Positions 3,493-54,411 of a stretch of DNA of 64,000 nt are shown here, one piece after another; within the stretch, counting starts at the first letter, position 1; every line of letters begins with the position of its first letter. The DNA is taken from contig NZ_CP166679.1 of NCBI RefSeq assembly GCF_041320605.1, forward strand, positions 2,342,001 through 2,406,000, read 5' to 3'. The translations under genes were made by a program, and so were the position numbers. The notes beneath the pieces were generated by a model. It saw only the letters and a list, made by a program, of their open reading frames with translations. It was not told the DNA's origin and searched no databases. Origin of the DNA: Arenibacter antarcticus. Its GTDB lineage: Bacteria > Bacteroidota > Bacteroidia > Flavobacteriales > Flavobacteriaceae.

Positions 3493-5667
3493 ATGTTTGC
3501 GTTCACAACATTTCCGAATTATCGCCAGCTCGATCAGATGGATTGCGGTCCCACTTGTCTTAAAATTATCGCCAAACATTACGGTAGGGAGCTTAGGCTG
3601 GATTATCTGAGAAGAATCTCAAGTTTAGAAAATGAAGGAGTGTCCATGTCCGGACTTTCCGATGCTATGGTAACGATTGGGTTGGATGCCATTGGAATAC
3701 GGACTAATTTAAAAGAGTTAGTGAACGATGTTCCTCTGCCAGCTGTTGCACACTGGGAAAACAATCATTTTCTGGTGGTTTACAAAACGACCAAAAAGTC
3801 CATATATGTTTCTGATCCCGCAATAGGACTGGCCAGGTACGGATATACAGAATTTATGGAGAAATGGGCTTCCAAAAATGGAAAGGGGATTCTCTTATTA
3901 GCAGAACCAACACACATTTTCAAGGAATTCAATGATGAAAATGTATCCTATAGCGGCATTGCATTTCTGAAAAGGTATCTTTTACCTTTTAAAGATTATA
4001 TCGGACAATTATTTCTGGGGATTTTTCTGGCCTCAATAATTCAGTTGTTACTACCTTTTTTAACCCAGAGCCTTGTTGATTATGGTATTGACTATGGAAA
4101 TCTCAATTTTATCCATTTGATCGTAATCGCCCAAATCTTTCTTTTTCTTACAATATTGGCATCCGAAATTATCCGTGATTGGTTATTGCTGCATATGTCT
4201 ACCCAAATAAATATTTCGATGGTATCGGATTTCTTGGATAAAATATTGTTGTTGCCAATTGCTTATTTTGATTCCAAATCTACAGGGGATTTTATGCAAC
4301 GAATTTATGACCATCATCGTATAGATGAATTTTTAGGAGGGCGCTCTCTTTCCATTATTTTTGATTTGTTCAGCATTTTGGTATTTGCAGTTGTTCTGGG
4401 ATACTTCGATATAGAGATTTTAGTGATTTTTCTTATAGGTACTTCGCTTTTTATGGGTTGGACCTTACTTTACTTAAAAAGAAAAGCTCTATTGGATCAT
4501 CAGCTCTTTAACTTGAACCGAAGAGAGCAATCCTTGTTGCTACAAATGATTACCGCGGTGCGAGAAATAAGGCTGAACGGATCTGAAAGACGACGAAAAT
4601 TGGAATGGAAGAAGTTGCAGATTAGATTATATAGCCTGAAAATTAAGATTCTCAGGGCAGATCAGGTCCAGTTAAAGGGAGGATCTCTTTTTAATGAAAT
4701 GACCAACATATTAATTATTTTTTGGTCGGCCAAAGCTGTAGTTTATGGGGAGATTACACTCGGTGCCATGTTGGCCATTCAATTTATTGTAGGCAGTCTT
4801 TCCATTCCTATTGCAAATACGCTGGATTTTATTGTCGGATTGCAACGGGCAACACTTTCCCTAAAACGATTATCCGAAATCCATTCCCAGGAATTGGATA
4901 TAATGTCCCATGGAGATACCTCTGCTTTGGAACTTGGTGATATTATTATTACCGGTCTGGATTTCCGATATGGGGAAAGAACCGCCCAGAAGGTATTGCA
5001 CAATATACATGCTACTATACCTAAAAATAGAGTTACAGCTATCGTGGGTCCCAGTGGCTCCGGAAAAACTACACTTTTAAAAATTCTCCTCAAAATTTAT
5101 CAGCCTAACAATGGTAATATCCTTATTGGAAAGGAGAATTTAAAATATGTAAGTCCAAAAATATGGATAGCGCATTGTGGCGCAGTCCTCCAGGATAGTA
5201 TGTTGTTCAATGATACTTTGGAGCGAAATATTACTGAATCAAATTCCAATCGGCCTACTAATCGAAAACTTTTGCGAGAAGCTGTGCAAATGGCCAATCT
5301 TACCGAATTGGTCGAGAATCTTCCCTTAGGTTATAATACCAGAATAGGGCATTGGGGCAATACTCTTAGTGGAGGTGAGAAACAGCGCATGTTGATTGCT
5401 AGGGCAATCTATAATAACCCGGATTATCTTTTCTTTGATGAGGCTACAAGTGCTCTTGACGCCAAAAGCGAAATGATGATTACAAAGAACTTAAAATCAT
5501 TCTATTCCGGTAAAACTGTAATCCTTGTCGCCCATCGACTATCCACGGTCCGCAATGCAGATCAAATCTTGGTTATGGATAAAGGGAGGATTGTGGAACA
5601 GGGTCATCATCATGAATTGTTGAAAAGAAAAGGAAGGTATTATGATCTCATTTCAAATCAACTGTGA
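3493..5667 (+). CDS. Peptidase-containing ABC exporter (C39 protease, PCAT type)
   Basis: A 724-residue inner-membrane transporter that removes double-glycine leader peptides and exports the mature peptide. An N-terminal C39 peptidase domain (about 1-140) has Cys18 in QMDCGPTCL, His92 in NNHFLVVY and Asp108 in SDPAIG, so the catalytic set is intact. Six membrane helices lie between about 165 and 450. The ATPase domain has Walker A GPSGSGKTT at about 519-527, signature LSGGEKQR, Walker B YLFFDEA and an AHRLST switch. It is the first gene of a tight operon: its stop overlaps the HlyD start region, and a GG-leader peptide gene lies 3.1 kb downstream. The family exports bacteriocins, lanthipeptides and ComC-like signals. 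Confidence 0.95.
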   Translation: MFAFTTFPNYRQLDQMDCGPTCLKIIAKHYGRELRLDYLRRISSLENEGVSMSGLSDAMVTIGLDAIGIRTNLKELVNDVPLPAVAHWENNHFLVVYKTTKKSIYVSDPAIGLARYGYTEFMEKWASKNGKGILLLAEPTHIFKEFNDENVSYSGIAFLKRYLLPFKDYIGQLFLGIFLASIIQLLLPFLTQSLVDYGIDYGNLNFIHLIVIAQIFLFLTILASEIIRDWLLLHMSTQINISMVSDFLDKILLLPIAYFDSKSTGDFMQRIYDHHRIDEFLGGRSLSIIFDLFSILVFAVVLGYFDIEILVIFLIGTSLFMGWTLLYLKRKALLDHQLFNLNRREQSLLLQMITAVREIRLNGSERRRKLEWKKLQIRLYSLKIKILRADQVQLKGGSLFNEMTNILIIFWSAKAVVYGEITLGAMLAIQFIVGSLSIPIANTLDFIVGLQRATLSLKRLSEIHSQELDIMSHGDTSALELGDIIITGLDFRYGERTAQKVLHNIHATIPKNRVTAIVGPSGSGKTTLLKILLKIYQPNNGNILIGKENLKYVSPKIWIAHCGAVLQDSMLFNDTLERNITESNSNRPTNRKLLREAVQMANLTELVENLPLGYNTRIGHWGNTLSGGEKQRMLIARAIYNNPDYLFFDEATSALDAKSEMMITKNLKSFYSGKTVILVAHRLSTVRNADQILVMDKGRIVEQGHHHELLKRKGRYYDLISNQL

Positions 5668-5672
5668 GCGCT

Positions 5673-6968
5673 ATGGAAGATAGAGATAATTATCCTTACG
5701 AAGAAAATGCCTATATAAAAAGGAAACCCACATGGATGATAAGAAGGGGAATAGCTATGGTGTTCGTTTTTTTCGTTATGGTCATGATGTTTGCTTCCCT
5801 TTTCTCCTATAATGAAAGTATAAATACATCTTTGGTATTGACAACAGAAGATCCACCGGTACATTTAAGGGCTAAACAAATCGGAAGAATCCTTGATATT
5901 AATAACAGTCCAAATGATATTGTTTCCAAAGGAGATATTTTAGGGGTTTTGGAAAACACGGGAAATGTACAGCATATAATGAAGCTGAAACAGAAGCTAA
6001 CTTCAGAACAGCCGAAATTTCTAGATTTTGAGCTTTTTAAAAATCAGTTCCCTACTCATTTAAACCTTGGGAATCAAATTAGACCCCTTTACAACGATTT
6101 TTTAAATGCCTATCGTGATTTATTATTGTATCAGAATCTAAATGATGAAGAACTGAAAGAGTCTGAGCTTGAACAGCGATATCAAGGTCAGAACAATACA
6201 ATAGAGAATAAGCGATATGAAATTCAAGTGCTTCAACGGGACCTAGAGATTTCCAGAACTGATTATGAACGCTATAATGGGTTATTTGAAAAAGGAGTGA
6301 TATCTCTGCAGGAATTGGAGCGGACCGAAAAACTTTATTTAAACGTTCAAAGGCAATTTTCGAATCTAATTCAAGAATTATCCCAACTCCAAATAGAACA
6401 ATCCTGGCTAAAGAACAATCTTTTATTGTTTCAAAATTCTAAGAGCAAAAATAACAGCGCCCACACGTCTAAATTGGAATCTGAAAAACAGGAATTATTG
6501 GCTGTATTAAAAGAATGGGAGGACATGTACTTATTAAGAAGTCCTATTTCTGGTCGTGTTTCTTTTTTAGATGTTTGGGCCAAACACCAGAATATAGAGG
6601 AAGGGCAAGTGATTTTTACTATCGTTCCTATGGATAAGCAAAAGTTATTGGGAAGGTGTCAAGTACCTATTTACAATTCTGGTAAGATAAAGCAAGGTCA
6701 GCACGTTATCATAAAATTGGATAATTATCCTTATAGAGAATGGGGTTCACTGAAAGGAAAAGTAAAAACAATTTCGGAAGTTCCTAAAGTTGGCGAAAAC
6801 CAAGGTTATGTTGTGTATGTACAAGTGGACGACTTGATTACTTCTTATGGAAAAACTTTGGAATTTAAGCAAGAAATGCACGGCAACGCCAAAATTATAT
6901 TAGCCGAAGTTTCTCTTATACAACGGATTTTTTACCAGTTTAGGGAACTTTGGGAAAACATAGGGTGA
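5673..6968 (+). CDS. HlyD-family periplasmic adaptor protein
   Basis: A membrane-fusion protein of about 432 residues that would couple the C39 ABC exporter to a TolC-like outer-membrane channel. It has a short basic cytoplasmic tail, one membrane segment at about 27-48, a lipoyl/barrel-sandwich half with RILDINNSPNDIVSKGD, a long coiled-coil hairpin at about 165-285, the second sandwich half SPISGRVSFLD and a beta-barrel C-terminus. I prefer the ATG at 5673; a GTG at 5664 overlaps the exporter stop codon. Its own stop TGA overlaps the next ATG (TGATG at 6966-6970), so it is probably translationally coupled to the regulator. No outer-membrane channel gene is present nearby. Confidence 0.88.
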   Translation: MEDRDNYPYEENAYIKRKPTWMIRRGIAMVFVFFVMVMMFASLFSYNESINTSLVLTTEDPPVHLRAKQIGRILDINNSPNDIVSKGDILGVLENTGNVQHIMKLKQKLTSEQPKFLDFELFKNQFPTHLNLGNQIRPLYNDFLNAYRDLLLYQNLNDEELKESELEQRYQGQNNTIENKRYEIQVLQRDLEISRTDYERYNGLFEKGVISLQELERTEKLYLNVQRQFSNLIQELSQLQIEQSWLKNNLLLFQNSKSKNNSAHTSKLESEKQELLAVLKEWEDMYLLRSPISGRVSFLDVWAKHQNIEEGQVIFTIVPMDKQKLLGRCQVPIYNSGKIKQGQHVIIKLDNYPYREWGSLKGKVKTISEVPKVGENQGYVVYVQVDDLITSYGKTLEFKQEMHGNAKIILAEVSLIQRIFYQFRELWENIG

Positions 6969-8704
6969 TGGTTAAGAATTCCAATAAATATCGATCAAAA
7001 GACCTAGGCTTAGTTATCAGGGGCGTGATATTGTCTTTTCTGATTACCAATTCCTTTGCTCAAGAAGCACCATCTCTAAAGGACACCATTAAGTTGGATG
7101 TCAATCACATTTTTAATCAACCTTATGATTATATAATGGACTTGGAGGATGAGGCGTTTGAAAATATTGACCTAAACAAACTCCGCAAATTAACTGATAT
7201 ACATATTCGTAAGGCCAAGCTTGAGGCCAATCCTTTGGAGATGGTTAATGGGTATTATTATCGCACAATTACAGAGGTGCCAGAAATTGCAATAAATTAT
7301 TCGGACTCCATAATTTTAGCGACCAAATATAGTAACCATCCAGAGCATCCTACCTTCGGCTATATTCTTAAAGCTATAATTTATTATGATAAAGGTGATT
7401 ATCAGCGAGCGCTGCAGAATTATATAATAGCGTATAATCTTGCCGTGGAAAAGAAAAATTTCACCGATCAACTTACCAGCTCTATGGCTATAGCTGCAAT
7501 TAGAAATTTAAACGGGCAACCGCATGCCGCTGCCGATATTTATACAAGATCATTAAAATTATTACAAAAGGAGAAGGATTACAAATACAGCAATTATAAG
7601 GATTATATCATGTTAATGCACAATCTTTCTCTCGCACACCTAAGGTTATCTCAATTAGATTCTGCTCGTTATTATTTGACAATGGGTATCGGAAAAGCGA
7701 TTTCAGAAAATGACTCCTTGGAGTATCGTGATTTAATTTTAGTTGGCGCCCAGTTGGATTATTATGAAAATAATTTTCAAAAAGCCAAGGACTCCCTTAT
7801 AAAATATACAGATGAATTAGAAGGGAATAGTAAAGCGGTGAAATTCTATTACCTCGGTAAAATTGCTCAAAATACAGGAAACGATGCATTGGCCATTACC
7901 TATTTCCAGCAAATTGATTCAATTGTAGAGAGGACGAAAAGACCATTTGATAAAGTTAAAGATGTTTATCAGCAATTAATTCTTCACTACGGACTTCAAG
8001 GAAATCAGCAACGGGAAATAGAATCAATTGAAAAGTTGATTTATTACGATAGTTTGATTACTTCAGAACATAGAGGGGTTATAGAGCAGGCGACTGTTGC
8101 TTACGACATCCCTTATCTTAAATTCCAGAAAAGGAAAGTAGAGGAAGAGCTCAAAGCTAAAAGTATATGGATTGTGATATTAGGGGTAGTCGCAGGAGTT
8201 GGGGTACTTATGGCCCCCTATTTCTACATTAGGGCCCGAACTACGAAACTGAAAGTAAAACGAATGCTCGACGGTACCAGTCCGCTTAAAACCTTTTCTA
8301 AAGAAGTGGGAACCCATCCCGAATCTGTTCCCAAAGAAATACGGAATGAATTGTTGTTGAAATTAGATGCGTTTGAGAAGTCGGATCTCTATTTAAAAAA
8401 AGATTTGGATATGGCCCAATTGGCACTGGAGATGGACACCAACACTTCTTATTTGTCAACGATTATCAATCATTATAAAGGAATGAGTTTCCCTAAATAT
8501 ATCAAAGATTTAAAAATTTCTATCGCGATAGAAAGACTTTCTAAAGACCCAGAATTATTGAAATTCAACTATCAAGGATTGGCAGAGACCTTTGGATTCA
8601 AAACCGGGGAATCATTTTCTAAAGCTTTTTATTCAAGGACCGGGATATATCCTTCCAAATTATTAAAAGAATTAAAAAATCGAGAAAATGCACGTCATTT
8701 ATAA
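6968..8704 (+). CDS. Membrane-spanning TPR sensor with C-terminal AraC-type HTH
   Basis: About 578 residues in three parts. An N-terminal signal segment ending near SFAQE is followed by a long helical tetratricopeptide-like region (about 90-390). One membrane helix (IWIVILGVVAGVGVLMAPYF) comes next. A cytoplasmic tail ends in an AraC HTH_18 domain, with DMAQLALEMDTNTSYLSTIIN as the first helix-turn-helix and LAETFGFKTGESFSKAF..TGIYPS as the second. The layout implies a one-component regulator with a periplasmic sensor, a type known in Bacteroidota. The ATG at 6968 overlaps the HlyD stop, so it belongs to the exporter operon. I infer that the TPR part senses the exported peptide and the HTH part binds the palindromes at 8693 and 11200. 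The last codons overlap the first palindrome. Confidence 0.85.
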   Translation: MVKNSNKYRSKDLGLVIRGVILSFLITNSFAQEAPSLKDTIKLDVNHIFNQPYDYIMDLEDEAFENIDLNKLRKLTDIHIRKAKLEANPLEMVNGYYYRTITEVPEIAINYSDSIILATKYSNHPEHPTFGYILKAIIYYDKGDYQRALQNYIIAYNLAVEKKNFTDQLTSSMAIAAIRNLNGQPHAAADIYTRSLKLLQKEKDYKYSNYKDYIMLMHNLSLAHLRLSQLDSARYYLTMGIGKAISENDSLEYRDLILVGAQLDYYENNFQKAKDSLIKYTDELEGNSKAVKFYYLGKIAQNTGNDALAITYFQQIDSIVERTKRPFDKVKDVYQQLILHYGLQGNQQREIESIEKLIYYDSLITSEHRGVIEQATVAYDIPYLKFQKRKVEEELKAKSIWIVILGVVAGVGVLMAPYFYIRARTTKLKVKRMLDGTSPLKTFSKEVGTHPESVPKEIRNELLLKLDAFEKSDLYLKKDLDMAQLALEMDTNTSYLSTIINHYKGMSFPKYIKDLKISIAIERLSKDPELLKFNYQGLAETFGFKTGESFSKAFYSRTGIYPSKLLKELKNRENARHL

Positions 8705-8713
8705 ATGGCGACC
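8693..8713. promoter_or_regulatory. 21-bp near-palindrome upstream of the peptide gene
   Basis: CGTCATTTATAAATGGCGACC has the palindromic core CATTTATAAATG and lies across the stop codon of the regulator gene, 79 bases before the peptide ATG. Its exact reverse complement occurs at 11224-11244. I propose a binding site for the AraC-type regulator; this is an inference. Confidence 0.55.
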
Positions 8714-8791
8714 AAATTTTTTAGGAAATTTTAGCAATTCACGGTAAATTAAACTAATAAGTAATTGTGTAACCTTTTAATAAATAATGTC

Positions 8792-8920
8792 ATGAGAAAA
8801 AAAATGGAAGAGTTTAAAAGTAGAGCTTTAAAGGACCTTACCAAGATAAAAGGTGGTGGTGAAGATGGACCAATAGATACGGATAAAATAAGAAGACCAG
8901 GGAGAAAGCGCAAAAATTAA
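8792..8920 (+). CDS. Double-glycine-leader secreted peptide precursor (42 aa)
   Basis: A short frame too small for usual ORF cut-offs. The protein begins MRKKMEEFKSRALKDLTKIK and continues GGGEDG. Taking the second Gly as -1, the leader has Phe at -15, Asp at -8, Leu at -7, Ile at -4 and Gly at -2/-1, close to the consensus of substrates cleaved by C39 peptidases. Cleavage would release a peptide of about 20 residues with an acidic N-terminal half, Pro in EDGP and RRPG, and a strongly basic tail RKRKN. It has no Cys, Ser or modifiable core motif, and no modification enzyme lies nearby, so it is probably unmodified. It sits between the exporter/regulator operon and a lipoprotein prolyl peptidase. 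It could be a signal or a bacteriocin. No immunity gene is recognisable. Confidence 0.8.
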   Translation: MRKKMEEFKSRALKDLTKIKGGGEDGPIDTDKIRRPGRKRKN

Positions 8921-8977
8921 TTAGGTCATTTAATTGATTTATTTGGTTTTAATTTTGATTAAATAAGGATAGAAATC

Positions 8978-11137
8978 ATGGTAAAATACATGTTGTTATT
9001 GTGTGGTGCATTTATCACTCTTATGTCTTGTAATCAAAATAAGACGGAAAAGATATGGATCTATCCGCAACTAGAACTTAGTCCTAAAATTGAAGAATAT
9101 TTTGGGACTAAGGTTTTGGATGATTATCATCAATTATCTGATTTAAAGGAACCAAAAATTCAAATATGGCTTAATGCACAGGATTCAATGGCCGAATCAT
9201 ACTTTTTAAAAAATGACCTTTTAGTAAATTATCGGAAGAGATTTCATAACCTGCAGGACAGAACCGTTGGCGATATCAGTCTATTAAGAGTCAGTGAATT
9301 AAGTCAGTATTTTTATTTGCGATACGATGCACTGAAAGAGATTGACGTTCTGTTTTTTAAGGAAGGTTTGTCCGAGCAAGAGTTTGAAGTGTATAATCCT
9401 TCTATAGATTACCCAGAAAACCCAAACATAACATATTTAGAGCCATCTTTTGACGGAAATAAAATAGCACTAGGGCTCGATTCCAAAGGGGAGTTTACCA
9501 CCACAATCATAATTTATGACCTGGAAAGTAAAAAGGTTTTAAAAGAGATAATAACAAATATTAACCCAGACTTTGGCGGAATTGAATGGTTGCCGGATAG
9601 TTCAGGCTTCATATATCTATATTTTCCAAACATAGATCCATCCAAACCGAACTATAAAAAAGAGTCCTATTCTGTAATTCATTTTCTAGGAGATAATCCT
9701 GAGAAAAGGACTCCGATTTTCGGGATGGAAGAATCCTATAAAATTCCAGCGGATAATTATCCGAAAGTGAAGACTGGCTCGAGCTTGGATAAATATATCA
9801 TTGCATATTCTGCAAAATCAGGTGATTTTTATAACAGTTTTATTGCTTCTTATAAAGATGTGAAGATGGGTATACCAAATTGGAAACCTTTCTATACTAC
9901 AAAGGAAAATATATATTATGATCAGGGAGAAGTAAGAGGTAAGTACTTTATTTACAGAAGGGCCACTCCAAACGGAAATGAAATTTGCCAAGTCGATATC
10001 CAAAATGTAAACTTTGATAGTCCAATAATTTTAGCAAAGGGAAGTGGTGATAATCCCATTACCAAATTTGAAGTAACAAAAGACTATATATACTTTATTA
10101 GAGAAAAATTTGGAGTGGAAGTTTCGTTATTTAAAATTAATGAAAATAGTATTGAGACTCAACTAACTCTACCATTTGTTCCCGGTTATGCATCCTTCTT
10201 TGGGGAATCTATCACCCATAATAGAATTGGGGTGGAATTGGATGGTTGGACCTCTGACTACGTTAGATACGATATTGATTTAAAAGGGAATCTTACCAAA
10301 GAGGGTTTGAATAAAACCACATTATTTCCCGAATATGAGAACCTGATTACCGAACAGGTTATGGTTGTTTCGCATGATGGAGAAGAAGTACCGTTATCCT
10401 TAGTTTATCGAAAAGATATGGAGTTAGAATCCAAAAATGAAGTGTTTGTGTACGTATATGGTGCATATGGTATAAGTATGAGTCCGTTTTTTTCTCCCAT
10501 ATTTCTGGATTGGGCGGAACAAGGAGGCATCCTTGCATTTCCCCATGTCCGTGGGGGAGGGGAAAAAGGAAAGGATTGGCACCTTCAAGGAATGAAAGGT
10601 GTAAAAAGTAATTCATGGAATGATTTAATTTCATGTGCAGAATTCCTAGTTGAGAACAGATATACCAAAAAAGGATTGATTGCATTATATACTAATAGTG
10701 CCGGTGGAATTACTGCGGGTATGGCTGTTAATGAGCGTCCAGAACTATTTTCATCTTTTATTGCAGAAGTACCTAGAATGAACCCTTTCGGCCTAGAATC
10801 CGCTACTTCTAGCAGCAGTACTAGTTACATGGAATATGGTACGGTAAAAGACAGTTTGGAATTCCTAGGACTTGTAGAAATGGACCCTTATTTAAATCTT
10901 ACCCCAAAAACGAAATATCCAGCAACTTTACTTATGCCAAGTAGCAATGATGACCGTATCCCTTTATGGGATAGCGCCAAATATATTGCGAAACTTCAAC
11001 ATTTTAACACTGCCAATACTCCCATAATATTGGATATAAACTACAAGTCGGGTCATGAGAACTCGGCTGGTTATGATGCAGAAATAGAATCATATGCCCG
11101 AATATTTAGCTTTGCTAAGTTGAATATGCAGCGTTAA
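8978..11137 (+). CDS. Prolyl oligopeptidase (S9A) lipoprotein
   Basis: A 719-residue serine peptidase that would cleave short peptides after proline outside the cytoplasm. The N-terminus is a lipoprotein signal with lipobox LMSC. Residues to about 430 form the beta-propeller lid. The catalytic domain shows VRGGGEKGKDWH, the nucleophile in LYTNSAGG (family form GGSNGG), the Asp in NDDRIPLW and the His in SGHENS. It starts 57 bases after the peptide gene on the same strand with no terminator between, so co-transcription is likely. The peptide has two Pro residues, so trimming, activation or removal of the peptide is a reasonable inference. A general scavenging role is also possible. Confidence 0.88.
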   Translation: MVKYMLLLCGAFITLMSCNQNKTEKIWIYPQLELSPKIEEYFGTKVLDDYHQLSDLKEPKIQIWLNAQDSMAESYFLKNDLLVNYRKRFHNLQDRTVGDISLLRVSELSQYFYLRYDALKEIDVLFFKEGLSEQEFEVYNPSIDYPENPNITYLEPSFDGNKIALGLDSKGEFTTTIIIYDLESKKVLKEIITNINPDFGGIEWLPDSSGFIYLYFPNIDPSKPNYKKESYSVIHFLGDNPEKRTPIFGMEESYKIPADNYPKVKTGSSLDKYIIAYSAKSGDFYNSFIASYKDVKMGIPNWKPFYTTKENIYYDQGEVRGKYFIYRRATPNGNEICQVDIQNVNFDSPIILAKGSGDNPITKFEVTKDYIYFIREKFGVEVSLFKINENSIETQLTLPFVPGYASFFGESITHNRIGVELDGWTSDYVRYDIDLKGNLTKEGLNKTTLFPEYENLITEQVMVVSHDGEEVPLSLVYRKDMELESKNEVFVYVYGAYGISMSPFFSPIFLDWAEQGGILAFPHVRGGGEKGKDWHLQGMKGVKSNSWNDLISCAEFLVENRYTKKGLIALYTNSAGGITAGMAVNERPELFSSFIAEVPRMNPFGLESATSSSSTSYMEYGTVKDSLEFLGLVEMDPYLNLTPKTKYPATLLMPSSNDDRIPLWDSAKYIAKLQHFNTANTPIILDINYKSGHENSAGYDAEIESYARIFSFAKLNMQR

Positions 11138-11199
11138 AATTGACTCCTTTAGCTAATCGTCTCGTAATTAATTCATTTTTTATTATTCATTATCCCATT

Positions 11200-11244
11200 A
11201 TTTGGTCGTCATTTATAAATGAAGGTCGCCATTTATAAATGACG
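11200..11244. promoter_or_regulatory. Two tandem copies of the 21-bp palindromic motif
   Basis: Copy one, GGTCGTCATTTATAAATGA (11204-11222), and copy two, GGTCGCCATTTATAAATGACG (11224-11244), have corresponding bases exactly 20 bases apart. That is two helical turns, so bound proteins would sit on one face. Copy two is the exact reverse complement of 8693-8713. They lie between the prolyl peptidase and rteC. Confidence 0.55.
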
Positions 11245-11372: not shown

Positions 11373-12188
11373 ATGGATTGGTTACGATCTCATATAGAAA
11401 TTAAATCTGGATTGATCAAGATCGAAGAATCATTCTTAAATAAGATTGTATCCTACAACAAGGCTATTTCCTATTGCCAAAATATTTTGGAGCAGTACCG
11501 TTCTGCTGTAGTTTCCGAAGGCTTCCCTGATGAAAGCGCGGAAATTCGATTTTTCAAAAATGAAAAGCCTTTTATAATGGGGCAACTTTTACGGTTTACG
11601 CATCAGTTGACTTTTGAACTTGATTTTGCAAAAATTGCCTATGCCTCTAACGAGAGTATTATTTTGCAGAAGATCCTGGAAGTAAATACCTTTTTGTCCC
11701 ACCATAGGGATATAGTGCTTTATATTGAACTTGAAAATCAAGAGCTGGATGCCCAATATTTCTTGCGAAAGAACAAGGGGTTCTATACCTATCCAGGTCC
11801 GCATGGATTCAGTTTTGACCCAGAATTTAGTTCTTCCCACGATGGGCTGTTGGCCCATATAGTGGGATATCAAGGTTTTCTTCAGTTTCTTCAACAAAAG
11901 TTGAATATTTCGAGTTCCTATCCCAACAAATCCCTTCCTAAAATTGCCTGGACAGAATCTAAAGTAGCTCTTACAGAACTTGCTTTTGCCCTGTTTTATA
12001 GCGGTGCTATTAATCAGGGTAAGGCCACTTTAAAATCTATAATTCGAGCTCTAGAACAGGTAACCGGGGTGGATTTGGGGGATTACCACCATACCTCTGT
12101 CCGATTTCGGAACCGTTCCCAACCCACAAAATTTATGGATAAACTTACAAGATCTCTAGAGAATTGGATGGCCGATTTGGACGATTAA
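11373..12188 (+). CDS. rteC: RteC-domain regulator of the conjugative element
   Basis: A 271-residue cytosolic protein. The C-terminal half carries the RteC signature: IAWTESKVALTELAFALFYSGAIN, then VDLGDYHHTSVRFRNRS and TKFMDKL. In CTnDOT the RteC protein activates the excision operon by binding inverted repeats upstream of it. Here an excisionase-like HTH gene follows about 240 bases later, behind a 17-bp inverted repeat, which is the same logic. It marks the left recognisable border of the mobilisation block. Confidence 0.88.
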   Translation: MDWLRSHIEIKSGLIKIEESFLNKIVSYNKAISYCQNILEQYRSAVVSEGFPDESAEIRFFKNEKPFIMGQLLRFTHQLTFELDFAKIAYASNESIILQKILEVNTFLSHHRDIVLYIELENQELDAQYFLRKNKGFYTYPGPHGFSFDPEFSSSHDGLLAHIVGYQGFLQFLQQKLNISSSYPNKSLPKIAWTESKVALTELAFALFYSGAINQGKATLKSIIRALEQVTGVDLGDYHHTSVRFRNRSQPTKFMDKLTRSLENWMADLDD

Positions 12189-12335: not shown

Positions 12336-12424
12336 TTGGCGATTCATTCCAAAACTCTTTTTCATTTTTGTATCCTAATCACAGACCAACGCAGGGGTGT
12401 TGGTCCTGTATAAAACCATTGGAT

Positions 12425-12715
12425 ATGCCAACAGCTATTATTACTACGGATGATCTGAGAGAATTTAAACTGGAACTTCTCTCTTCGATCAAGGAACTAT
12501 TGAACGAGAACCAGACTAAAATGATGAAAAAGGAATGGCTCAGGAGCACCCAGGTCATGGATATGCTCCAGATCAGTATGACCACCCTTCAAGGTCTTCG
12601 GGTAAAAGGAACCCTCCCCTTTATAAAAATAGGGGGGCTTATTTTTTATGAAGCAGGGGAAATTGAAAAGGTCCTAATGGAGAATACCGTGAATCCCTTA
12701 AAGAAAAAGCGATGA
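12425..12715 (+). CDS. Excisionase-like helix-turn-helix protein
   Basis: A 96-residue small basic DNA-binding protein. The start ATG at 12425 (MPTAIITTDDL) is preferred because family members begin there; an upstream TTG at 12368 would only add unlike residues. The MerR/excisionase-type HTH is WLRSTQVMDMLQISMTTLQGLR followed by LPFIKIGGLIFY. Such proteins sit in the excision operon of Bacteroidetes conjugative elements and help the integrase excise. The stop overlaps the start of the next gene by four bases (ATGA), so the two are coupled. Confidence 0.82.
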   Translation: MPTAIITTDDLREFKLELLSSIKELLNENQTKMMKKEWLRSTQVMDMLQISMTTLQGLRVKGTLPFIKIGGLIFYEAGEIEKVLMENTVNPLKKKR

Positions 12716-13383
12716 ACTACATACGGCACCTTAATTCTGTTTTTGGACAATTTGCTAAAGACCAAAGGCTGAATCCTACCCACATCAGTCTTTATATAGC
12801 GCTGTTCCAGTTATGGAACATCCATCGTTTTCCAACGGTATTTTATATCAATAGGGAAGAAGTGATGGCCATTGCAAAAATAGGATCAAAAGCGACCTAC
12901 CATCGCTGTCTACGAAGATTGCACGATTGGAAATACATCCGGTATTTGCCTTCCCATAATCCCTATAAGGGAAGCCAAATACAGATGCTCGAATTCGGTA
13001 CAAGTACTGGAACAAGTACTGGGACAACTACTGGTACAAGTAGTGAACAAGTAGTGGTACAAGCATTAGTACCTTATATAAACATTAATAAACAAAATAG
13101 AAACATTAATAAACCTAAGCTACCCAAAAGTGAAAATGAAGTTTTTAATTTTTTCAAAAAAGAAAAATGGCCCGCTAATGAAGGAAAAAAATTCTTCAAC
13201 CATTACAATTCGATCGGGTGGAAATTGGGCGGAAGAATAGCGATAGAGGATTGGCATTCTACAGCTAGGAATTGGATGTTAAAGGCCGATGAAATAGAAA
13301 AAGAAAAAACGACGAACGGACCGTCCCAAAAACGGGACAACCTAAAAATCACCAAAGACAAAGATTATGGACAACCCCTCTAA
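12712..13383 (+). CDS. Replication-associated protein of the mobile element (unassigned family)
   Basis: A 223-residue protein. The N-terminal 95 residues look like a winged helix (THISLYIALFQLWN, then SKATYHRCLRRLHDWKYIRYLPS). A low-complexity linker of Thr/Ser/Gly is coded by 12-bp repeats. A small DnaD-like C-terminal domain follows (FFKKEKWPANEGKKFFNHYNSIGWK, ending DWHSTARNW). This pattern, directly upstream of a DnaC-like ATPase that overlaps its 3' end, is typical of helicase-loading pairs on Bacteroidetes mobile elements. I infer a role in initiating replication of the excised circle. The exact family name cannot be given from sequence alone. Confidence 0.65.
   Translation: MNYIRHLNSVFGQFAKDQRLNPTHISLYIALFQLWNIHRFPTVFYINREEVMAIAKIGSKATYHRCLRRLHDWKYIRYLPSHNPYKGSQIQMLEFGTSTGTSTGTTTGTSSEQVVVQALVPYININKQNRNINKPKLPKSENEVFNFFKKEKWPANEGKKFFNHYNSIGWKLGGRIAIEDWHSTARNWMLKADEIEKEKTTNGPSQKRDNLKITKDKDYGQPL
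13000..13063 (+). repeat. 12-bp tandem repeat inside the replication-like gene
   Basis: Units of the type ACAAGTACTGGA repeat in tandem (13000, 13012, 13024, 13036, 13047) and code for a Thr-Ser-Thr-Gly linker. The fourth unit is 11 bases long, so the later units are read in another frame (SSEQVVVQ). The repeat may vary in copy number. Confidence 0.75.
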
Positions 13384-14029
13384 AATAATCGAAGACCATC
13401 TGGAATATTCTCTTGGGGTATTTGACGGAAAGGAAGTGCTGTATGATTTTGATAAGATCCTGATTTACCTGAACGCCAAGGGGAAACTGCTTTTTGGAAA
13501 CCAATTTAAAATCTATGACCAGGATCGGGACATCGTTTTTAAACTTTGCAATTACTTCATCAAAGACAGGAAGTATTGCGAAAAGGAGAATATTGATCCC
13601 CAAAAAGGCATCCTCCTGACCGGCCCCGTGGGTTGCGGTAAGACCAGCTTGATGAAGTTGATCCGCCATCTTGTCCCGATGCAACGACCCTTCGAGGTAA
13701 TCCCCTCAAGAAACATAACCTTTAGCTTTAACCACTTGGGCTATAAGACCATCGAAGATTTTGGGAACAGTAGGTCCTACTGCTTCGACGACCTCGGGAT
13801 AGAGCCGATAGGCCGCTATTATGGGCATGACTGCAACGTGATGGGCGAGGTACTGCTCTCGCGCTATGAACTGTTCCTAGAGACCAAGGGCAAGGTCAAG
13901 ACCCATGCCACTACCAACCTGAACGCCGGAGAATTGGAAGAACTTTACGGGAATAGGGTACGCAGCCGGATGAGGGACCTTTTTAACCTGATCGCATTTG
14001 ATAAGAACACAAAGGACAAACGAATTTAA
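13367..14029 (+). CDS. DnaC/IstB-like AAA+ ATPase
   Basis: A 220-residue ATPase, probably a helicase loader for element replication. Walker A is GPVGCGKTS, Walker B is SYCFDDLGIE, a sensor-1-like segment is THATTNL, and an arginine-finger region is YGNRVRSRMRDLFNLI. The start at 13367 lies inside the 3' end of the upstream gene (17-base overlap), which argues for a functional pair. The 3' two thirds are visibly richer in G+C codons than the preceding gene, suggesting a mosaic origin. Confidence 0.85.
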   Translation: MDNPSKIIEDHLEYSLGVFDGKEVLYDFDKILIYLNAKGKLLFGNQFKIYDQDRDIVFKLCNYFIKDRKYCEKENIDPQKGILLTGPVGCGKTSLMKLIRHLVPMQRPFEVIPSRNITFSFNHLGYKTIEDFGNSRSYCFDDLGIEPIGRYYGHDCNVMGEVLLSRYELFLETKGKVKTHATTNLNAGELEELYGNRVRSRMRDLFNLIAFDKNTKDKRI

Positions 14030-14040
14030 TACCTGAAAAA

Positions 14041-15150
14041 ATGAAAGTAGCTACATGGAACATTGAAAACCTTTATCACCGGGACAAGGGATTGTCCAGA
14101 TCCAATCTAGGTAAGTGTGCGTCCGATTGGATTCTGGAATTGGACGCCCTGATGCCCAGAATACAAAAAAGCGAAAATGATATGGCACGTATTCGGGAAC
14201 TCACATTTTTATTGGGTTTTGAAAACATCGATACCCATCCCTACGCGGTAATGAGAAAAAGAAATGGGGGACTTTTTCTAAAACAACGTGATTTTGCCAA
14301 CGAATCCAAAGCCTCTAGGTTAACGGATTGGAACGGTTGGGTAGCTCTGCAGACCGTAGCTGTGGACCATAAATCGACCTTACATAAAGCGCGGCTTATT
14401 GCTGAAATCGATGCCGATATTCTAGTGCTGCAAGAGGTAGAGGATAAGCCTTCGTTAATGGAGTTCAATCGGATGCTGAAAGATTTTAATATTGCGTCCT
14501 ATGATCAGGTCATGGTCTTGGAGGGGAACGATGACCGTGGCCTGTCCATGGCAATTATGACCAAAAATGGATATCGGTTGGATACGGTGAGATGCCATAC
14601 CGTGGATATTGCGGATGGGAGGGACCTTACGTTTGAAACGGACTGTCAAGAGTATGCGATCATTACCCCAAAAGAGGAAACAGTTTTTATACTTTCCACA
14701 CAATTTTCGGGGCATAACACTGCCAAGAGAAAGCTACAGGCTCGGGAGGTTGCTGCCATTTACGATAAATTGAAAGTAGAAGGGAAGGAGCGGGTCCTAG
14801 TCTGTGGCACCTTGAACGATGTATCCTATAGCGATTGCTTGTCCCCAATACTCCGAGAGACGGACCTAGAAGATATTTCTAGGTTACCCATGTGTGAGGT
14901 AGACAAGGATAAGGGAAAAGCTGCTGGATATTTTCGGCTGGGGGCCTATCGGAAAGGGGTAAATATCAAACAGAAAGACTATATGCTTCTTTCCTATGAA
15001 ATGAGCCAGAAGATAATCACATGCGGAATTAATCGTAAAGCGATGTGGCCGGAACGGAATATGAAATGGGAAGTGTATCCAACCCTTAAAAACAGAGAAC
15101 ATGCGGCCAGTGCACACCCTTTGATCTGGGGAGAGTTTGATATTTGGTAG
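14041..15150 (+). CDS. Endonuclease/exonuclease/phosphatase-fold protein
   Basis: A 369-residue protein of the EEP superfamily, common in this type of mobile element. Recognisable motifs are ATWNIENL at the N-terminus, the metal-binding Glu in LVLQEVED, DRGLSMAI, LSTQFSGHN and NIKQKDYMLLS. Two canonical catalytic positions look changed: the GDxND motif reads CGTLND, and the terminal SDH motif reads SAHPLIWGEF. The family in general cleaves nucleic acids or phosphodiesters; here activity is uncertain. It begins 11 bases after the ATPase stop, so it shares that operon. Confidence 0.8.
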   Translation: MKVATWNIENLYHRDKGLSRSNLGKCASDWILELDALMPRIQKSENDMARIRELTFLLGFENIDTHPYAVMRKRNGGLFLKQRDFANESKASRLTDWNGWVALQTVAVDHKSTLHKARLIAEIDADILVLQEVEDKPSLMEFNRMLKDFNIASYDQVMVLEGNDDRGLSMAIMTKNGYRLDTVRCHTVDIADGRDLTFETDCQEYAIITPKEETVFILSTQFSGHNTAKRKLQAREVAAIYDKLKVEGKERVLVCGTLNDVSYSDCLSPILRETDLEDISRLPMCEVDKDKGKAAGYFRLGAYRKGVNIKQKDYMLLSYEMSQKIITCGINRKAMWPERNMKWEVYPTLKNREHAASAHPLIWGEFDIW

Positions 15151-15824: not shown

Positions 15825-16163
15825 ATGAGCAATTTAAGAAACCATGTACAGCTGATGGGGAACATCGGGGATGTTCCATCGATCACTAATCTAGAAAGTG
15901 GAAAAAAGGTGGCCCGTTTTCAAATGGCGACCAATGACTTTTACAAGAACGCCAAAGGGGAGAAAGTAAAACGTACGGACTGGCACAGCGTGGTAGCCTG
16001 GGGAAAAACGGCAGAGATCGTGGAGAAGTTTGGGGGAAAGGGAAAGGAAATCGGTATAGTCGGGAAATTAAGGACCCGGAGCTATACGGCTGCTGATGGG
16101 TCTACCCGATATATCACAGAAGTTGTTGCCGATGAGATTTTATTACTTGGTAGCAGGGCCTAA
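15825..16163 (+). CDS. ssb: Single-stranded DNA-binding protein (element-encoded)
   Basis: A 112-residue OB-fold protein. The start MSNLRNHVQLMGNIGDVPSI, the core VARFQMATNDFYKN and the WHSVVAWGKTAEIVEKF segment are characteristic. It lacks the long acidic C-terminal tail and tip of chromosomal SSB, as is usual for versions on Bacteroidetes mobile elements. It likely coats transferred or replicating single strands. A 9-bp hairpin follows the stop. Confidence 0.93.
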   Translation: MSNLRNHVQLMGNIGDVPSITNLESGKKVARFQMATNDFYKNAKGEKVKRTDWHSVVAWGKTAEIVEKFGGKGKEIGIVGKLRTRSYTAADGSTRYITEVVADEILLLGSRA

Positions 16164-16200
16164 CCGTTAGACCACGTATCCAAGATGCAGAACAACAACG

Positions 16201-16228
16201 GAGGGCGTTCCCGAAATTCAACGCCCTC
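16201..16228. other. Hairpin after ssb
   Basis: The arms GAGGGCGTT and AACGCCCTC form a perfect 9-bp stem with a 10-base loop. No T-run follows on the plus strand, so it is either a weak terminator or an mRNA processing or stabilising structure. Confidence 0.6.
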
Positions 16229-16264
16229 TCGATGTTGTCATTATTCACTTAATACTTAATAGTA

Positions 16265-16645
16265 ATGGACAGCAAATCTAAAGAAATAAACGAAGGGCTG
16301 CAACATTTTCACGGTTCGGAAATAGTTTTTCAACTCCCTTTATTAAAGACCAAATTTACGGACGGTATAAAATATCTTGCCCATGCGGCCGAATGTTTTT
16401 GGCTCGTTACGGATACCTCTGTAATCGCGAAAAGTTTGATGAACAAAAGTCGGTTTATCACAATCGTTTTTAAAAAATGTTCTGAGCAGGAAAAAGAAAA
16501 TCTGGGTTATGAGGCTACCATCGTTTATAGTGATGGCAATGGAAATATTTATGAAACCCATAAATACAATATAACCGATTTTCCATTGGACCAGCTCAGA
16601 TTGTTTTTTGTGGACGACACCTTGATGTTGCCCAGCGAATATTAA
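16265..16645 (+). CDS. DUF6876 family protein
   Basis: A 126-residue cytosolic protein of unknown function found on Bacteroidetes mobile elements. Recognisable conserved pieces are FTDGIKYLAHAAECFWLVTD, an ATIVYSDGNGNIY segment and the C-terminal YNITDFPLDQLRLFFVDDTL followed by LPSEY. It is followed by a clear terminator, so it ends the ssb unit. No catalytic motif is visible. Confidence 0.7.
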   Translation: MDSKSKEINEGLQHFHGSEIVFQLPLLKTKFTDGIKYLAHAAECFWLVTDTSVIAKSLMNKSRFITIVFKKCSEQEKENLGYEATIVYSDGNGNIYETHKYNITDFPLDQLRLFFVDDTLMLPSEY

Positions 16646-16655
16646 TCGAAAAAAA

Positions 16656-16688
16656 GGGCGGACCGACCAAAGTACCGCCCTCTTTTTT
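16656..16688 (+). terminator. Rho-independent terminator after the DUF6876 gene
   Basis: The stem GGGCGG (16656-16661) / CCGCCC (16675-16680) is followed by TCTTTTTT on the plus strand; an A-run precedes it. Confidence 0.85.
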
Positions 16689-16879
16689 CTGGTTACTTCA
16701 ACTGGGGACAATGAAAAACCCACAAGCGAGGGGTAATCTTATTTCTAAATTTTATTATTCGCATCGTTTTCTCCAAATCATTGCAAATTCCATAAAAACA
16801 CCTGTTTTATACTCTTAAAGTTTTCGGTTGACTTTAGGTCTAAGTGGCAGTGTACTACTTTGAATAGAAGGTTGAGAAA

Positions 16880-16960
16880 TTTTTCGCTGAGGGCGAAAAA
16901 AAGGAATAGCAAGAGGGTAACGCGCTAAAGCGACGTTACGATGATGTCTTGCTTCGCAAG
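16880..16960. other. Putative origin of transfer (oriT) with three hairpins
   Basis: Within 81 bases there are three stem-loops. TTTTTCGC/GCGAAAAA lies at 16880-16900. GTAACGCGCT/AGCGACGTTAC, with one bulge, lies at 16917-16939. CTTGC/GCAAG with a 3-base loop lies at 16948-16960. The stretch is non-coding, follows a terminator and directly precedes the mobilisation genes, where oriT is found in related elements. No nic site can be named from sequence. Confidence 0.5.
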
Positions 16961-17065
16961 GCCTTTGTTTGTAGGGGTTTGGAGCGTTTTGGATTTTAGG
17001 ATGAATCTTGCCCAATGGGTCAAAATCCTCGTCAACCCCCAAGAACATTGAAGAAATTTGACCCA

Positions 17066-17620
17066 ATGGAGAAGTTTTATACGATACGGTTTAGACGGAA
17101 TACTGCCCAGCGGTTCAAACGGTTTTCCAAAAAAGTCTCCAGTTCCTATTCGGAGTCGTTAGAGATGATTATTGATTTTTTTGAATGGCACGGATTTTTA
17201 CCGTCGGAAAAGTTTGAAAAGAGTGTGGGTAAGGAAATCTTAAAGAACAGAAAACGGACGGAAGCGGCAATTGCCATTATTCGTCAGATTGAAAAGAGCC
17301 AAACCCTGCCCACAACTACCATGCTGGAACTTCTTTTTGAACACTCTCCCCAAAAGAAACCGGAACAAGCACCCTTGTTGATCGGGAGCCAAGAGAATGA
17401 TGTGGAAAGGGATGTGTTTTTTAAAAAGGTGGAGCAAGCCTTGGCCATGGAGAGAGAGAACACCAACCTTCATCGAGACCTAAAGCAAACAAAGAAAGAG
17501 TTTGCTTTACTGCTAGATAAAGTACAATTAGTGAAAAGTGGGTTTGGGAAACCTAGGTTGCAATTGGACATGAGTCCTGACGTTTTTGAAAATTTAAAAC
17601 AGAGGTTGAAAAAAGAATAA
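17066..17620 (+). CDS. BfmA/BtgA-family mobilisation protein
   Basis: About 185 residues. It is a relaxosome accessory protein that binds near oriT and helps the relaxase. The N-terminal MEKFYTIRFRRNTAQRFKRF and SSSYSESLEMIIDFFEWHG fit the BfmA-type DNA-binding region, and IRQIEKSQTLPTTTMLELLF is a second conserved block; a coiled-coil tail follows. I prefer the ATG at 17066; the in-frame ATG at 17015 would add 17 atypical residues. It ends four bases before the relaxase start, so the two are co-translated. Confidence 0.82.
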   Translation: MEKFYTIRFRRNTAQRFKRFSKKVSSSYSESLEMIIDFFEWHGFLPSEKFEKSVGKEILKNRKRTEAAIAIIRQIEKSQTLPTTTMLELLFEHSPQKKPEQAPLLIGSQENDVERDVFFKKVEQALAMERENTNLHRDLKQTKKEFALLLDKVQLVKSGFGKPRLQLDMSPDVFENLKQRLKKE

Positions 17621-17624
17621 CACC

Positions 17625-18650
17625 ATGTATATCAATATCACCAAACAGCATTTGGATGCTACTTTTTCCCCGAGTTCCGCAGATTTTGTGGCCTATCTGG
17701 AGAAAGAGAACGAAGGGAAACAACTGGATCAGCAGGAACATTTTTTTGATCAGCGCAACGACCGGATCGCCCCCGAAAAGGTAATCAGGGAAATAGATGG
17801 AAATACGGCCAAATTGAAAAATCTGGAGCCTAAATTCTATTCCCTGACCATCAATCCAAGTCAGCGGGAATTAAGGCATATCAATAACGACCCAAATAAA
17901 TTAAAAGAATATGTCCGGGAGGTGATGAAGGATTATGCTGCCTCCTTTTATAGGGATAAGCCCGTATCGGTCCATAGTTTAAAATATTATGCAAAGTTGG
18001 AGTATGAACGCACCTTTAAGGGATATGACAAACAGGTAAAAGAGAATCAGGTTTTTAAGGCGCAGATCGTCAAATTGGAAAATGATATCCGAATGGTATT
18101 AAGAGGTGACCTGGAAGGCAGTGTCAACGCCATGAAGAAGGAAATCACCAAACTTACTGCTCAAATTCCCCATCGTTTAAATGGGGAAGTAGTTGCACAG
18201 GGGATGAATAAGCCAGGGTTGCAGACCCATATCCATGTCATTGTAAGCAGAAAGGACGTATCCAACCGGTTCAGTCTTTCCCCCGGAAGCAAATACATGG
18301 AATCAGAATCGATTCTAAACAACAAAGTGGTCAAACGGGGATTTAGGCGGGACCAATTTTATGAAAGTGCCGAGAAAAGATTTGATGCCATGTTCAAATA
18401 TAAGCGAAATTTCGTGGAGACCTACCACGCCCGAAAGAGCCTTTTAAACGATCCGAAAATTTATTTCGCCCATCTCTTAGGACTGCCCACCAATGAACGA
18501 AGTGCTGCCTTTAAAATCATGGGAGCTGCCGGGGTAAATATCCCCAAGCTTAACATTCCTACCAACAAGGTAGAAGCCGCCCTCCAAGCCATTAAACAAT
18601 TTAAAAAGGTGATAGAAGTGGCTAAAACGGCAAGCTCAATCGGGGTGTGA
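17625..18650 (+). CDS. Relaxase/mobilisation nuclease (MobB-like, DUF5712)
   Basis: A 341-residue protein that should nick oriT and pilot the strand. It has KFYSLTINPSQRELRH near residue 68 and the metal-binding HxH motif in QTHIHVIVSRKD near residue 200. The order and length fit the Bacteroidetes MobB/DUF5712 group. A helical C-terminal region (NERSAAFKIMGAAGVNIPK) is also typical. It is flanked by bfmA and a coupling protein, the normal mobilisation set. Confidence 0.85.
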   Translation: MYINITKQHLDATFSPSSADFVAYLEKENEGKQLDQQEHFFDQRNDRIAPEKVIREIDGNTAKLKNLEPKFYSLTINPSQRELRHINNDPNKLKEYVREVMKDYAASFYRDKPVSVHSLKYYAKLEYERTFKGYDKQVKENQVFKAQIVKLENDIRMVLRGDLEGSVNAMKKEITKLTAQIPHRLNGEVVAQGMNKPGLQTHIHVIVSRKDVSNRFSLSPGSKYMESESILNNKVVKRGFRRDQFYESAEKRFDAMFKYKRNFVETYHARKSLLNDPKIYFAHLLGLPTNERSAAFKIMGAAGVNIPKLNIPTNKVEAALQAIKQFKKVIEVAKTASSIGV

Positions 18651-18686
18651 GTGTATTCGTCAAACTGGGTTAATTGATAATATGAA

Positions 18687-20303
18687 TTGATGATGATAGA
18701 CTTTTTGATATTATTAAAGGTATTGATCTATGGTGTGGGAATCGCATTGGAATATGTATCCTATAAGTGGTACAAGTATCCCTTTGCCTTCAATTTTTTT
18801 ATATTATTTCTGTTGGGAGGAATATTTCAATGGCAGCATGGTTGGCCAATTTTTATTAAAATTATGCTGTTTTGGTTGTTGCCTTTTCAGATTGCCAATC
18901 TAGGGTTTTTTATCTACTTTAATTATAGTTTAAGGAGTCCCAAGGATCCTGAAAGTTATCGTGTGAAGTTTAAATTATTGAACGGCAGCCTGGTGTTAAG
19001 GAATATACGAAGAGGGGCCTCTATTATAGGGTCGGCGGGAAGTGGCAAAACAGAAAGTGTAGTCTATAATTTTTTAAAACACTTTAACCAACACCAGTTT
19101 TCTGGAGTAATTCATGATTACAAGGATTTTGAGATTACCGAAATGGCTTTTCCCCTTTTTAAGGACTCCAAAATACCATTTCATATTATTTCATTTGATG
19201 ATATTCATAGTCGGGTGAACCCTATAGCACCACGGTATATGGAGGATGAAGAAAGTGTCAATGAGGTTTCCCGGGTGCTGTTGGAGAATCTTTTGGAGCA
19301 GCGGGAATCTATTGCCTCGGGTTCCTCAAAGTTCTTTAACGATGCCGTGGAAGGCCTTCTGGGAGGGCTTATTTGGAAGTTGAAAACTAGCCATCAGCAA
19401 TATTGTACCTTGCCACATCTTATTGCCACCTTTCAGTACCTGGATACCAAAAACTTAATACAGTTCCTGAGTTCAGATTACACTTCAAAGGCCATGGCGG
19501 ATGCCTTTATTTCCGGGCAGGATTCGGAACGCCAAACTGCAGGGGTGATGAGCACCTTGGCCAATGCCCTTAAAAAAATCAGTACCCAACGGATATTTAT
19601 GGCACTTTCCGCAGATGAAGTGCCATTGGATATCAATAATCCAGAGCATCCTTCGGTGGTTTCCATTGTGAACAACCCAAAATTTGAAACCGCCTACTCC
19701 CCGGTGATAGCCACTATTATACACACCATTACCAAGCAGTTGAGCATACGTGGCCGCCAGCGCTCCTTTATCCTTATGGAAGAAGCGCCAACGATTAGAT
19801 TGCTAAATATGCACAGGATTCCAGCAACTTTAAGGAGTTATGATATTGCTACAATCTATGTGCTACAGGATAAAATTCAAAACGATATCATGTATGGCGA
19901 CAAGGCAAGTAGAGCCATACTGAGCAACCTATCCTACCAGTTTTTTGGCAAGGCTAACGATCCCGATACGGCACGATATTACGAACGATTTTTTGAAATC
20001 GTAAAACGGCCGACAAAGAGTGTGAGCAAGGGACAGGACACCTTCAAATCCGACACAAGGATTACAAAAGGGGAGAGGGAGGTGAGTAAAATCAGGGCAG
20101 AAGAATTTTTTAGGTTGAAGGAAGGGGAGTTTATTGCCTTTGCCGATGGAAAGGATAAAAAAGTGCGCTTCCCAAAACCCAATATAGTGAAAGGGCTTCC
20201 CGCACCTAAATTCCCCATCGGTGATGGAGCAATACTGGAAAACTTTAATCGGATCCATTTGGAAGTTCAGCAGTTCCTCATATTAACGTCCAAACGTCAG
20301 TAA
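18687..20303 (+). CDS. Type IV coupling protein (VirD4/TraG-like ATPase)
   Basis: A 538-residue inner-membrane ATPase that links the relaxosome to the mating pore. Two or three N-terminal membrane segments (to about residue 80) are followed by a nucleotide-binding domain with Walker A IGSAGSGKTE (about 115-124) and Walker B SFILMEEAPT. The segment NNPKFETAYSPVIATIIHTITKQ and a TDG-like C-terminus match the Bacteroidetes coupling proteins. It lies 36 bases after the relaxase. Confidence 0.88.
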   Translation: MMMIDFLILLKVLIYGVGIALEYVSYKWYKYPFAFNFFILFLLGGIFQWQHGWPIFIKIMLFWLLPFQIANLGFFIYFNYSLRSPKDPESYRVKFKLLNGSLVLRNIRRGASIIGSAGSGKTESVVYNFLKHFNQHQFSGVIHDYKDFEITEMAFPLFKDSKIPFHIISFDDIHSRVNPIAPRYMEDEESVNEVSRVLLENLLEQRESIASGSSKFFNDAVEGLLGGLIWKLKTSHQQYCTLPHLIATFQYLDTKNLIQFLSSDYTSKAMADAFISGQDSERQTAGVMSTLANALKKISTQRIFMALSADEVPLDINNPEHPSVVSIVNNPKFETAYSPVIATIIHTITKQLSIRGRQRSFILMEEAPTIRLLNMHRIPATLRSYDIATIYVLQDKIQNDIMYGDKASRAILSNLSYQFFGKANDPDTARYYERFFEIVKRPTKSVSKGQDTFKSDTRITKGEREVSKIRAEEFFRLKEGEFIAFADGKDKKVRFPKPNIVKGLPAPKFPIGDGAILENFNRIHLEVQQFLILTSKRQ

Positions 20304-27015: not shown

Positions 27016-27035
27016 TGCAGTAAGGATTTATCGTT

Positions 27036-28563: not shown

Positions 28564-28623
28564 CAGTTTTGTGTTTTTTATTTACTGGTTGGTATTTCTG
28601 TTTCCGTTGAGTCCTGCTATGAA

Positions 28624-54396: not shown

Positions 54397-54411
54397 CAGT
54401 AACAAAGACAA

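Follow-up and report, generated by a model that had tools for sequence, protein, structure and literature searches.

A candidate peptide-signalling cassette linked to rteC on a conjugative element of Arenibacter antarcticus

What cue sets a conjugative element in motion when the element carries its own peptide gene, peptide exporter and membrane-spanning regulator? This question is raised by a five-gene cassette in a 64,000-nucleotide stretch of the Arenibacter antarcticus genome (contig NZ_CP166679.1, positions 2,342,001 to 2,406,000; hereafter the window, whose numbering is used unless otherwise stated), in which an original prediction had seen a cell-cell signalling loop. Our best reading of the sequence is that a self-encoded peptide signal would control both its own operon and the transfer programme of the element; probable regulator sites lie before the peptide gene and before rteC, and the element therefore probably decides on moving by a peptide signal. 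We regard peptide signalling via the TPR/AraC protein onto rteC as probable. The five genes were found intact over 3493-11137, with the domains of the large genes confirmed by Pfam, and are followed by rteC, the next gene after that for the S9 peptidase; the features are as follows (E-values with the family names).

3493..5667, + strand: C39 peptidase/ABC exporter, 724 residues (Pfam Peptidase_C39, 6.6e-33; ABC_membrane; ABC_tran).
5673..6968, + strand: HlyD-type periplasmic adaptor, 431 residues (Pfam HlyD_3, 2.2e-16).
6968..8704, + strand: TPR/AraC regulator, 578 residues, with a signal peptide, a TPR domain at about residues 45-345, a membrane span near residues 398-420 and an AraC helix-turn-helix (HTH) domain at about residues 440-578 (Pfam TPR_12, 2.5e-8; HTH_18, 1.3e-8; hydropathy; AlphaFold2).
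8693..8713, no strand: palindromic site 1 (CGTCATTTATAAATGGCGACC), before the peptide gene and overlapping the regulator stop codon, conserved across loci.
8792..8920, + strand: double-glycine peptide gene, precursor MRKKMEEFKSRALKDLTKIKGG followed directly by GEDGPIDTDKIRRPGRKRKN, the latter being the predicted mature peptide (comparative loci; substitution rate ratio as given below).
8978..11137, + strand: exported S9A-type peptidase, a predicted lipoprotein of 719 residues (Pfam Peptidase_S9, 4e-38; prolyl endopeptidases in the PDB, 1.1e-59).
11207..11244, no strand: palindromic sites 2 and 3, 20 bp apart, before rteC, a tandem pair that recurs across loci.
11373..12188, + strand: RteC-family protein, the probable output gene (Pfam RteC, 4.4e-46).

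The genes are closely packed, as had been described: the HlyD stop and the regulator ATG overlap by one base (TGATG at 6966-6970), and the S9 gene begins 57 bases past the stop of the 42-codon peptide gene. The leader of the latter has Phe-15, Leu-7, Ile-4, Gly-2 and Gly-1 at the predicted positions, and the exporter carries the CGPTC and NHF motifs with the catalytic Cys and His; at the gene level the pair, a C39 exporter and a matching double-glycine leader, thus belongs to the C39-processed class. Orthologues of the exporter, 74-77% identical, occupy the equivalent position in Arenibacter. The predicted mature peptide is about 20 residues long, hydrophilic, without cysteine and with a basic C terminus; its precursor gives a weak match to the ComC profile (E=0.037), which reflects the leader.

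Comparison was made over 32 element-type loci (the window and 31 named loci), 28 of which are full; the counts over 28 leave out four receptor-only loci. All 28 full loci, which span 12 flavobacterial genera, have the peptide gene in the interval from regulator to peptidase. In Arenibacter (eight loci including the window) it is a double-glycine gene of 41-43 codons; elsewhere, in part with other gene arrangements, it is present in Christiangramia, Gillisia, Cerina, Salegentibacter, Jejuia, Yeosuana, Confluentibacter, Seonamhaeicola, Ulvibacterium and Flagellimonas, with a divergent version at the matching position in Croceitalea. The leader and flanks vary, but the mature core keeps near GPIDxDK[IVL], and 27 of the 28 loci have one like GPIDxDKI. 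The ratio of non-synonymous to synonymous substitution rates (dN/dS) is about 0.1 between close orthologues (0.11 for the window against L106, 0.13 against L113). Judged from its recurrence across genera, its stable mature core and this ratio, the short gene is real and under purifying selection for its protein product, and, with open reading frame, leader and core recurring at the equivalent place in other genera, the gene set is more than a chance assembly. The original prediction was to be given up if the short frame were unconserved beside homologous exporters, or if a conserved bacteriocin/immunity pair took its place; the frame is conserved, leaving the reading unrefuted, and no such pair was found.

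The evidence for an output comes from a palindrome, gTCATTTATAAATGAc, which occurs once directly past the regulator gene and twice ahead of rteC. Of the 28 full loci, 25 carry its strict core, ATTTATAAAT, in the stretch that separates the regulator from the peptide gene, and 27 carry the shorter core TTTATAAA there, set against a background rate for the strict core of 0.0024 per 125 bp elsewhere in those loci. At least two copies of TTTATAAA are found within 350 bp upstream of rteC in 25 of the 32 loci, spaced by 20-21 bp in 24 of these 25, whereas the core was absent from all 30 cassette-free rteC genes of the same bacterial family used as a control (about 3.6 kb each). In the 4.69-Mb genome the 12-bp core CATTTATAAATG occurs in four places, three of which are at this locus. 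Some elements have the palindrome ahead of the exporter gene as well, and chromosomal relatives of the regulator that are without rteC carry the same core downstream (24/47) and upstream (30/47). Every regulator of the element-type loci has an rteC gene close by, in one orientation or the other. Most simply, the TPR/AraC protein would itself read the palindrome, and binding appears likely; two sites two helical turns apart would suit an AraC-type protein, and their placement 34-166 bp before rteC would suit activation. The excision and transfer genes of CTnDOT are under RteC control (PMC1976400). With the cassette inside a conjugative element and probable regulator sites leading to rteC, the circuit would therefore have a concrete output, which had previously been missed.

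The proposed receptor was modelled with AlphaFold2 at a mean pLDDT (predicted local distance difference test score) of 86.8, with values >90 across most of the TPR part. When its TPR superhelix was compared with the PDB by Foldseek, the best matches were LGN/Pins TPR domains, most of them in structures that include a bound partner, a likeness of shape only with TM-scores of about 0.35 by query length. The TPR protein had been likened to the receptors of RRNPP systems, a comparison that was not borne out: those receptors are cytoplasmic, whereas this protein has a signal peptide, a TPR domain that is periplasmic by topology, one membrane span and an AraC HTH, and the list of its 50 best fold matches contained no RRNPP structure. 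A small propeptide gene does lie beside the receptor in 28 loci, but with a double-glycine leader rather than a Sec signal. We therefore rejected RRNPP membership. No relatives of the regulator were found in plasmid and viral-contig collections. A wide chromosomal TPR/AraC family (Aquimarina, Kordia, Tenacibaculum and others; L126-L175, L052-L055, L062-L068 and L090) adjoins double-glycine peptide genes, often in several copies, and often has an S9 gene nearby and the ATTTATAAAT core around the regulator gene; one flavobacterial genome has seven TPR/AraC regulator genes in tandem (L086, 5537-17715). In Christiangramia sediminis (L119, 9971-11685) the regulator gene is split, by a frameshift, sequencing error or decay.

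The peptidase keeps the Ser-Asp-His triad of the S9A fold, and most of its relatives have an export signal or a lipobox. At the positions aligned with Trp595, Phe476 and Asn555, which form the proline pocket of porcine prolyl oligopeptidase (POP), the window protein and its cassette relatives have Ser or Asn, Tyr (or Asn) and Ala. The earlier description of a lipoprotein prolyl oligopeptidase thus holds for the S9A type, the intact triad and the predicted lipidation, but not for the pocket, the residues of which are replaced. Nor are the two prolines of the peptide invariant, Cerina being without the second and Salegentibacter without the first. Of the signalling loop as originally drawn, the peptide circuit sensed by a periplasmic TPR domain is well supported, by its conservation, by co-variation and by shared regulator sites, whereas turnover by a proline-specific enzyme is not, given the unconserved pocket and the variable prolines; for the same reasons we rejected post-proline excision of a conserved nonapeptide lying between the two prolines. 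The enzyme may mature the signal or remove it. In Gillisia limnaea (L112, 11810-13977) the S9 gene is split, again by a frameshift, sequencing error or decay.

Pairwise distances among the four large cassette genes are strongly correlated (r 0.91-0.97), as are those of the peptide with the large genes (0.83-0.88; 0.88 with the regulator) and, less closely, those of RteC with the large genes (0.69-0.79), whereas the integrase gives 0.09-0.25 (six loci). The window integrase is 24-30% identical to those of other elements over part of its length. On the strength of the high cassette and RteC values, the low integrase values and the differing integrases, the cassette is, as far as these comparisons reach, a unit that travels together and keeps with rteC as integrases change.

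The route from peptide to transfer could then be as follows. The 42-residue precursor would be cut after Gly-Gly and the peptide exported by the C39/HlyD machinery; leader cleavage and export are likely, judging from the protein families and the leader. In the periplasm the TPR domain would sense the peptide, either whole or after the S9 enzyme has trimmed it to a fragment, and that the peptide is the ligand of the regulator we hold with moderate confidence. The cytoplasmic AraC domain would bind gTCATTTATAAATGAc before the peptide-S9 genes, before rteC (in tandem) and, in some elements, before the exporter, and RteC would switch excision and transfer genes by analogy with CTnDOT. The element would in this way gauge the number of carriers around it and adjust its transfer programme. 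Autoinduction is the simpler reading of the effect, inhibition by the self-peptide, as in ICEBs1, the alternative.

Several observations weigh against this scheme. The sequence is compatible with either direction of effect, and the cassette encodes no outer-membrane channel, while an exported peptide would have to return to the periplasm to be sensed. Four Arenibacter loci (L098, L099, L104 and L115) keep the regulator, palindromes and rteC without exporter, peptide or peptidase; one of them, L104, has S9 remnants, and Arenibacter hampyeongensis has one full and one receptor-only element. These look like elements in which the receiver was kept and the sender lost. The left half of site 1 is coding where the regulator ends His-Leu-stop; this half falls beyond the stop codon in the Jejuia, Yeosuana and Confluentibacter loci, and the copies at rteC lie in intergenic DNA upstream of the gene. 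Shared ancestry alone also yields correlated distances, so that the correlations support linkage and are not proof of interaction.

Other functions for the peptide were weighed against signalling. It might be a bacteriocin-like toxin that favours element-bearing cells, with the S9 protein giving periplasmic immunity by degradation and the TPR/AraC protein only timing production with transfer. C39 exporters with double-glycine peptides do often serve bacteriocins, the bacteroidetocins of Bacteroidota among them (PMC6671954), a periplasmic peptidase could act as immunity, and the C terminus of the peptide is basic. Bacteroidetocins and class IIa bacteriocins, however, have at least two cysteines and a mature length of 35-50 residues, whereas this peptide is short and hydrophilic with no cysteine, its core is conserved across genera rather than diversified, profile searches including Pfam gave no match to a bacteriocin family, and it is the regulator, its sites and rteC that survive where exporter, peptide and peptidase are lost. 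We consider a toxin unlikely. Doubtful, too, and distinctly improbable in our view, is that the regulator senses some other cue, such as envelope or nutrient state, and drives rteC and the peptide genes, the peptide being an output and not a ligand: TPR-AraC proteins are common in Flavobacteriaceae, many with no double-glycine peptide found adjacent, and receptor-only elements occur, but the peptide-regulator correlation given above, the company of peptide gene, peptidase and exporter with the regulator in 28 of the 32 element loci, and a modelled TPR fold that appears to resemble peptide-binding grooves argue for a ligand.

Very improbable is a third account, in which the peptide is the precursor of a ribosomally synthesized and post-translationally modified peptide (RiPP) whose cluster sits on the element incidentally, regulator and peptidase serving production. 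Distant regulator homologues do have other double-glycine peptides in their neighbourhood, along with pairs of about 740 and 285 residues whose likeness to split lanthipeptide dehydratases is one of size only; yet none of the cassette genes was recognised as coding for a modification enzyme, the mature peptide conserves no Ser, Cys or aromatic residue, and the tandem palindrome at rteC, absent without the cassette, does not fit hitch-hiking. Signalling through the TPR/AraC protein accordingly remains our preferred reading.

In streptococci the double-glycine competence peptide ComC is itself a signal, exported by the C39 exporter ComAB and received by a histidine kinase. The present leader (Phe-15, Leu-7, Ile-4) and its exporter are of the same kind, but the receptor would be a one-component TPR-AraC protein, and a peptidase and rteC are added. 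The use of a secreted peptide and a TPR receptor encoded by a mobile element to govern excision or conjugation is known from RapI-PhrI of ICEBs1 and Rap-Phr of pLS20 (PMC3601965, PMC3814332, PMC6540685). There, in Gram-positive hosts, the receptors are cytoplasmic RRNPP proteins and the peptides are re-imported after Sec export of their precursors; here a membrane-spanning TPR-AraC receptor, a double-glycine leader, a C39 exporter and rteC as output gene take their place. CTnDOT shares the regulation of excision and transfer genes by rteC in a Bacteroidota conjugative element, but in CTnDOT rteC is turned on by the two-component pair RteA/RteB in response to tetracycline, whereas here a TPR/AraC and peptide cassette precedes rteC (PMC1976400). 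Bacteroidetocins share the combination of a Bacteroidota double-glycine peptide with a C39 exporter and differ in being 42-residue cysteine-containing toxins accompanied by genes for a thiol oxidoreductase and a transmembrane protein, whereas here a TPR/AraC gene and rteC are adjacent (PMC6671954).

Peptide-controlled conjugation is thus known from Gram-positive elements, while in Bacteroidota elements, vehicles of resistance and metabolic genes, the described trigger of rteC is tetracycline via RteA/RteB. The locus offers a candidate native trigger for which a peptide sequence, a receptor, an operator and an output gene can each be named; a single synthetic peptide and a single reporter would suffice to test it. 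Neither a peptide circuit nor a TPR/AraC regulator was found described for any Bacteroidota conjugative element in the open-access literature searched, a scope that excludes most subscription papers and all preprints. The combination of regulator, operator and double-glycine gene could serve as a route to peptide signalling in a phylum for which that literature gave none. Whether the cassette represents a wider Bacteroidota class of peptide quorum sensing, marked by a receptor type of its own that joins a periplasmic TPR part to an AraC DNA-binding domain through one membrane span, and by a dedicated peptidase that is exported, we judge to be evenly balanced; such a class would be a broad chromosomal Flavobacteriaceae family, one branch of which was captured by conjugative elements to control rteC, and receptor-only elements may then hear the signal of others.

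The genome is a single 4.69-Mb contig, in which the element occupies 92.8 kb bounded by 85-bp direct repeats at tRNA-Val. Its further features in the window are these.

12368..15150, + strand: element genes conserved after rteC, for an HTH_17 protein, a 223-residue protein, a 220-residue P-loop protein and a 369-residue protein.
15825..20303, + strand: SSB, DUF6876, a BfmA/BtgA family protein, MobB relaxase and a MobC-like coupling protein.
26194..32485, - strand: TraN, TraM, genes in the TraK and TraJ positions (assigned by position only, without a family match) and the TraG conjugation ATPase.
52926..54182, - strand: tyrosine integrase adjoining the right attachment site (Pfam Phage_integrase, 1.3e-17).
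54355..54439, + strand: attR, an 85-bp direct repeat that includes the 3' part of tRNA-Val and is paired with a copy at the intact tRNA-Val outside the window (genome 2303566-2303650).

The partner repeat, 92.8 kb upstream, lies at the intact tRNA-Val(tac), and both ends of the element share AGGCTCACTTTAGGCTCACTT. With integrase, attachment sites, relaxase, coupling protein and Tra genes, the gene content is that of the Bacteroidota conjugative transposon (CTn) type, and the segment is, on this content, an integrative and conjugative element or was formerly one. Between the Mob and Tra genes (21421-25894) lie an IS66 transposase, a short sulfatase and a sugar-porter fragment, signs of insertion or decay; in view of the IS66 copy and the gene fragments, this copy of the element may be defective. 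A 14-bp repeat at 3362 and 54144 was considered as an attachment site near the cassette and set aside as chance, the ends having been found at tRNA-Val.

A DnaE-type polymerase gene lies within the element at 49-1713, and the one other carrier among the genus members searched also has dnaE beside the cassette (cf. L076, 17515-18729). That dnaE and an abhydrolase gene mark a chromosomal flank was rejected, dnaE being inside the element and present in only one of the 12 other genus members searched. Upstream of dnaE is a 404-residue gene, the start of which resembles an ImuB-like Y-family polymerase. Two TonB-dependent receptor genes, each with a gene for a SusD-looking lipoprotein, lie at 40154-44954 and 47810-52471 and are apparent cargo of the element.

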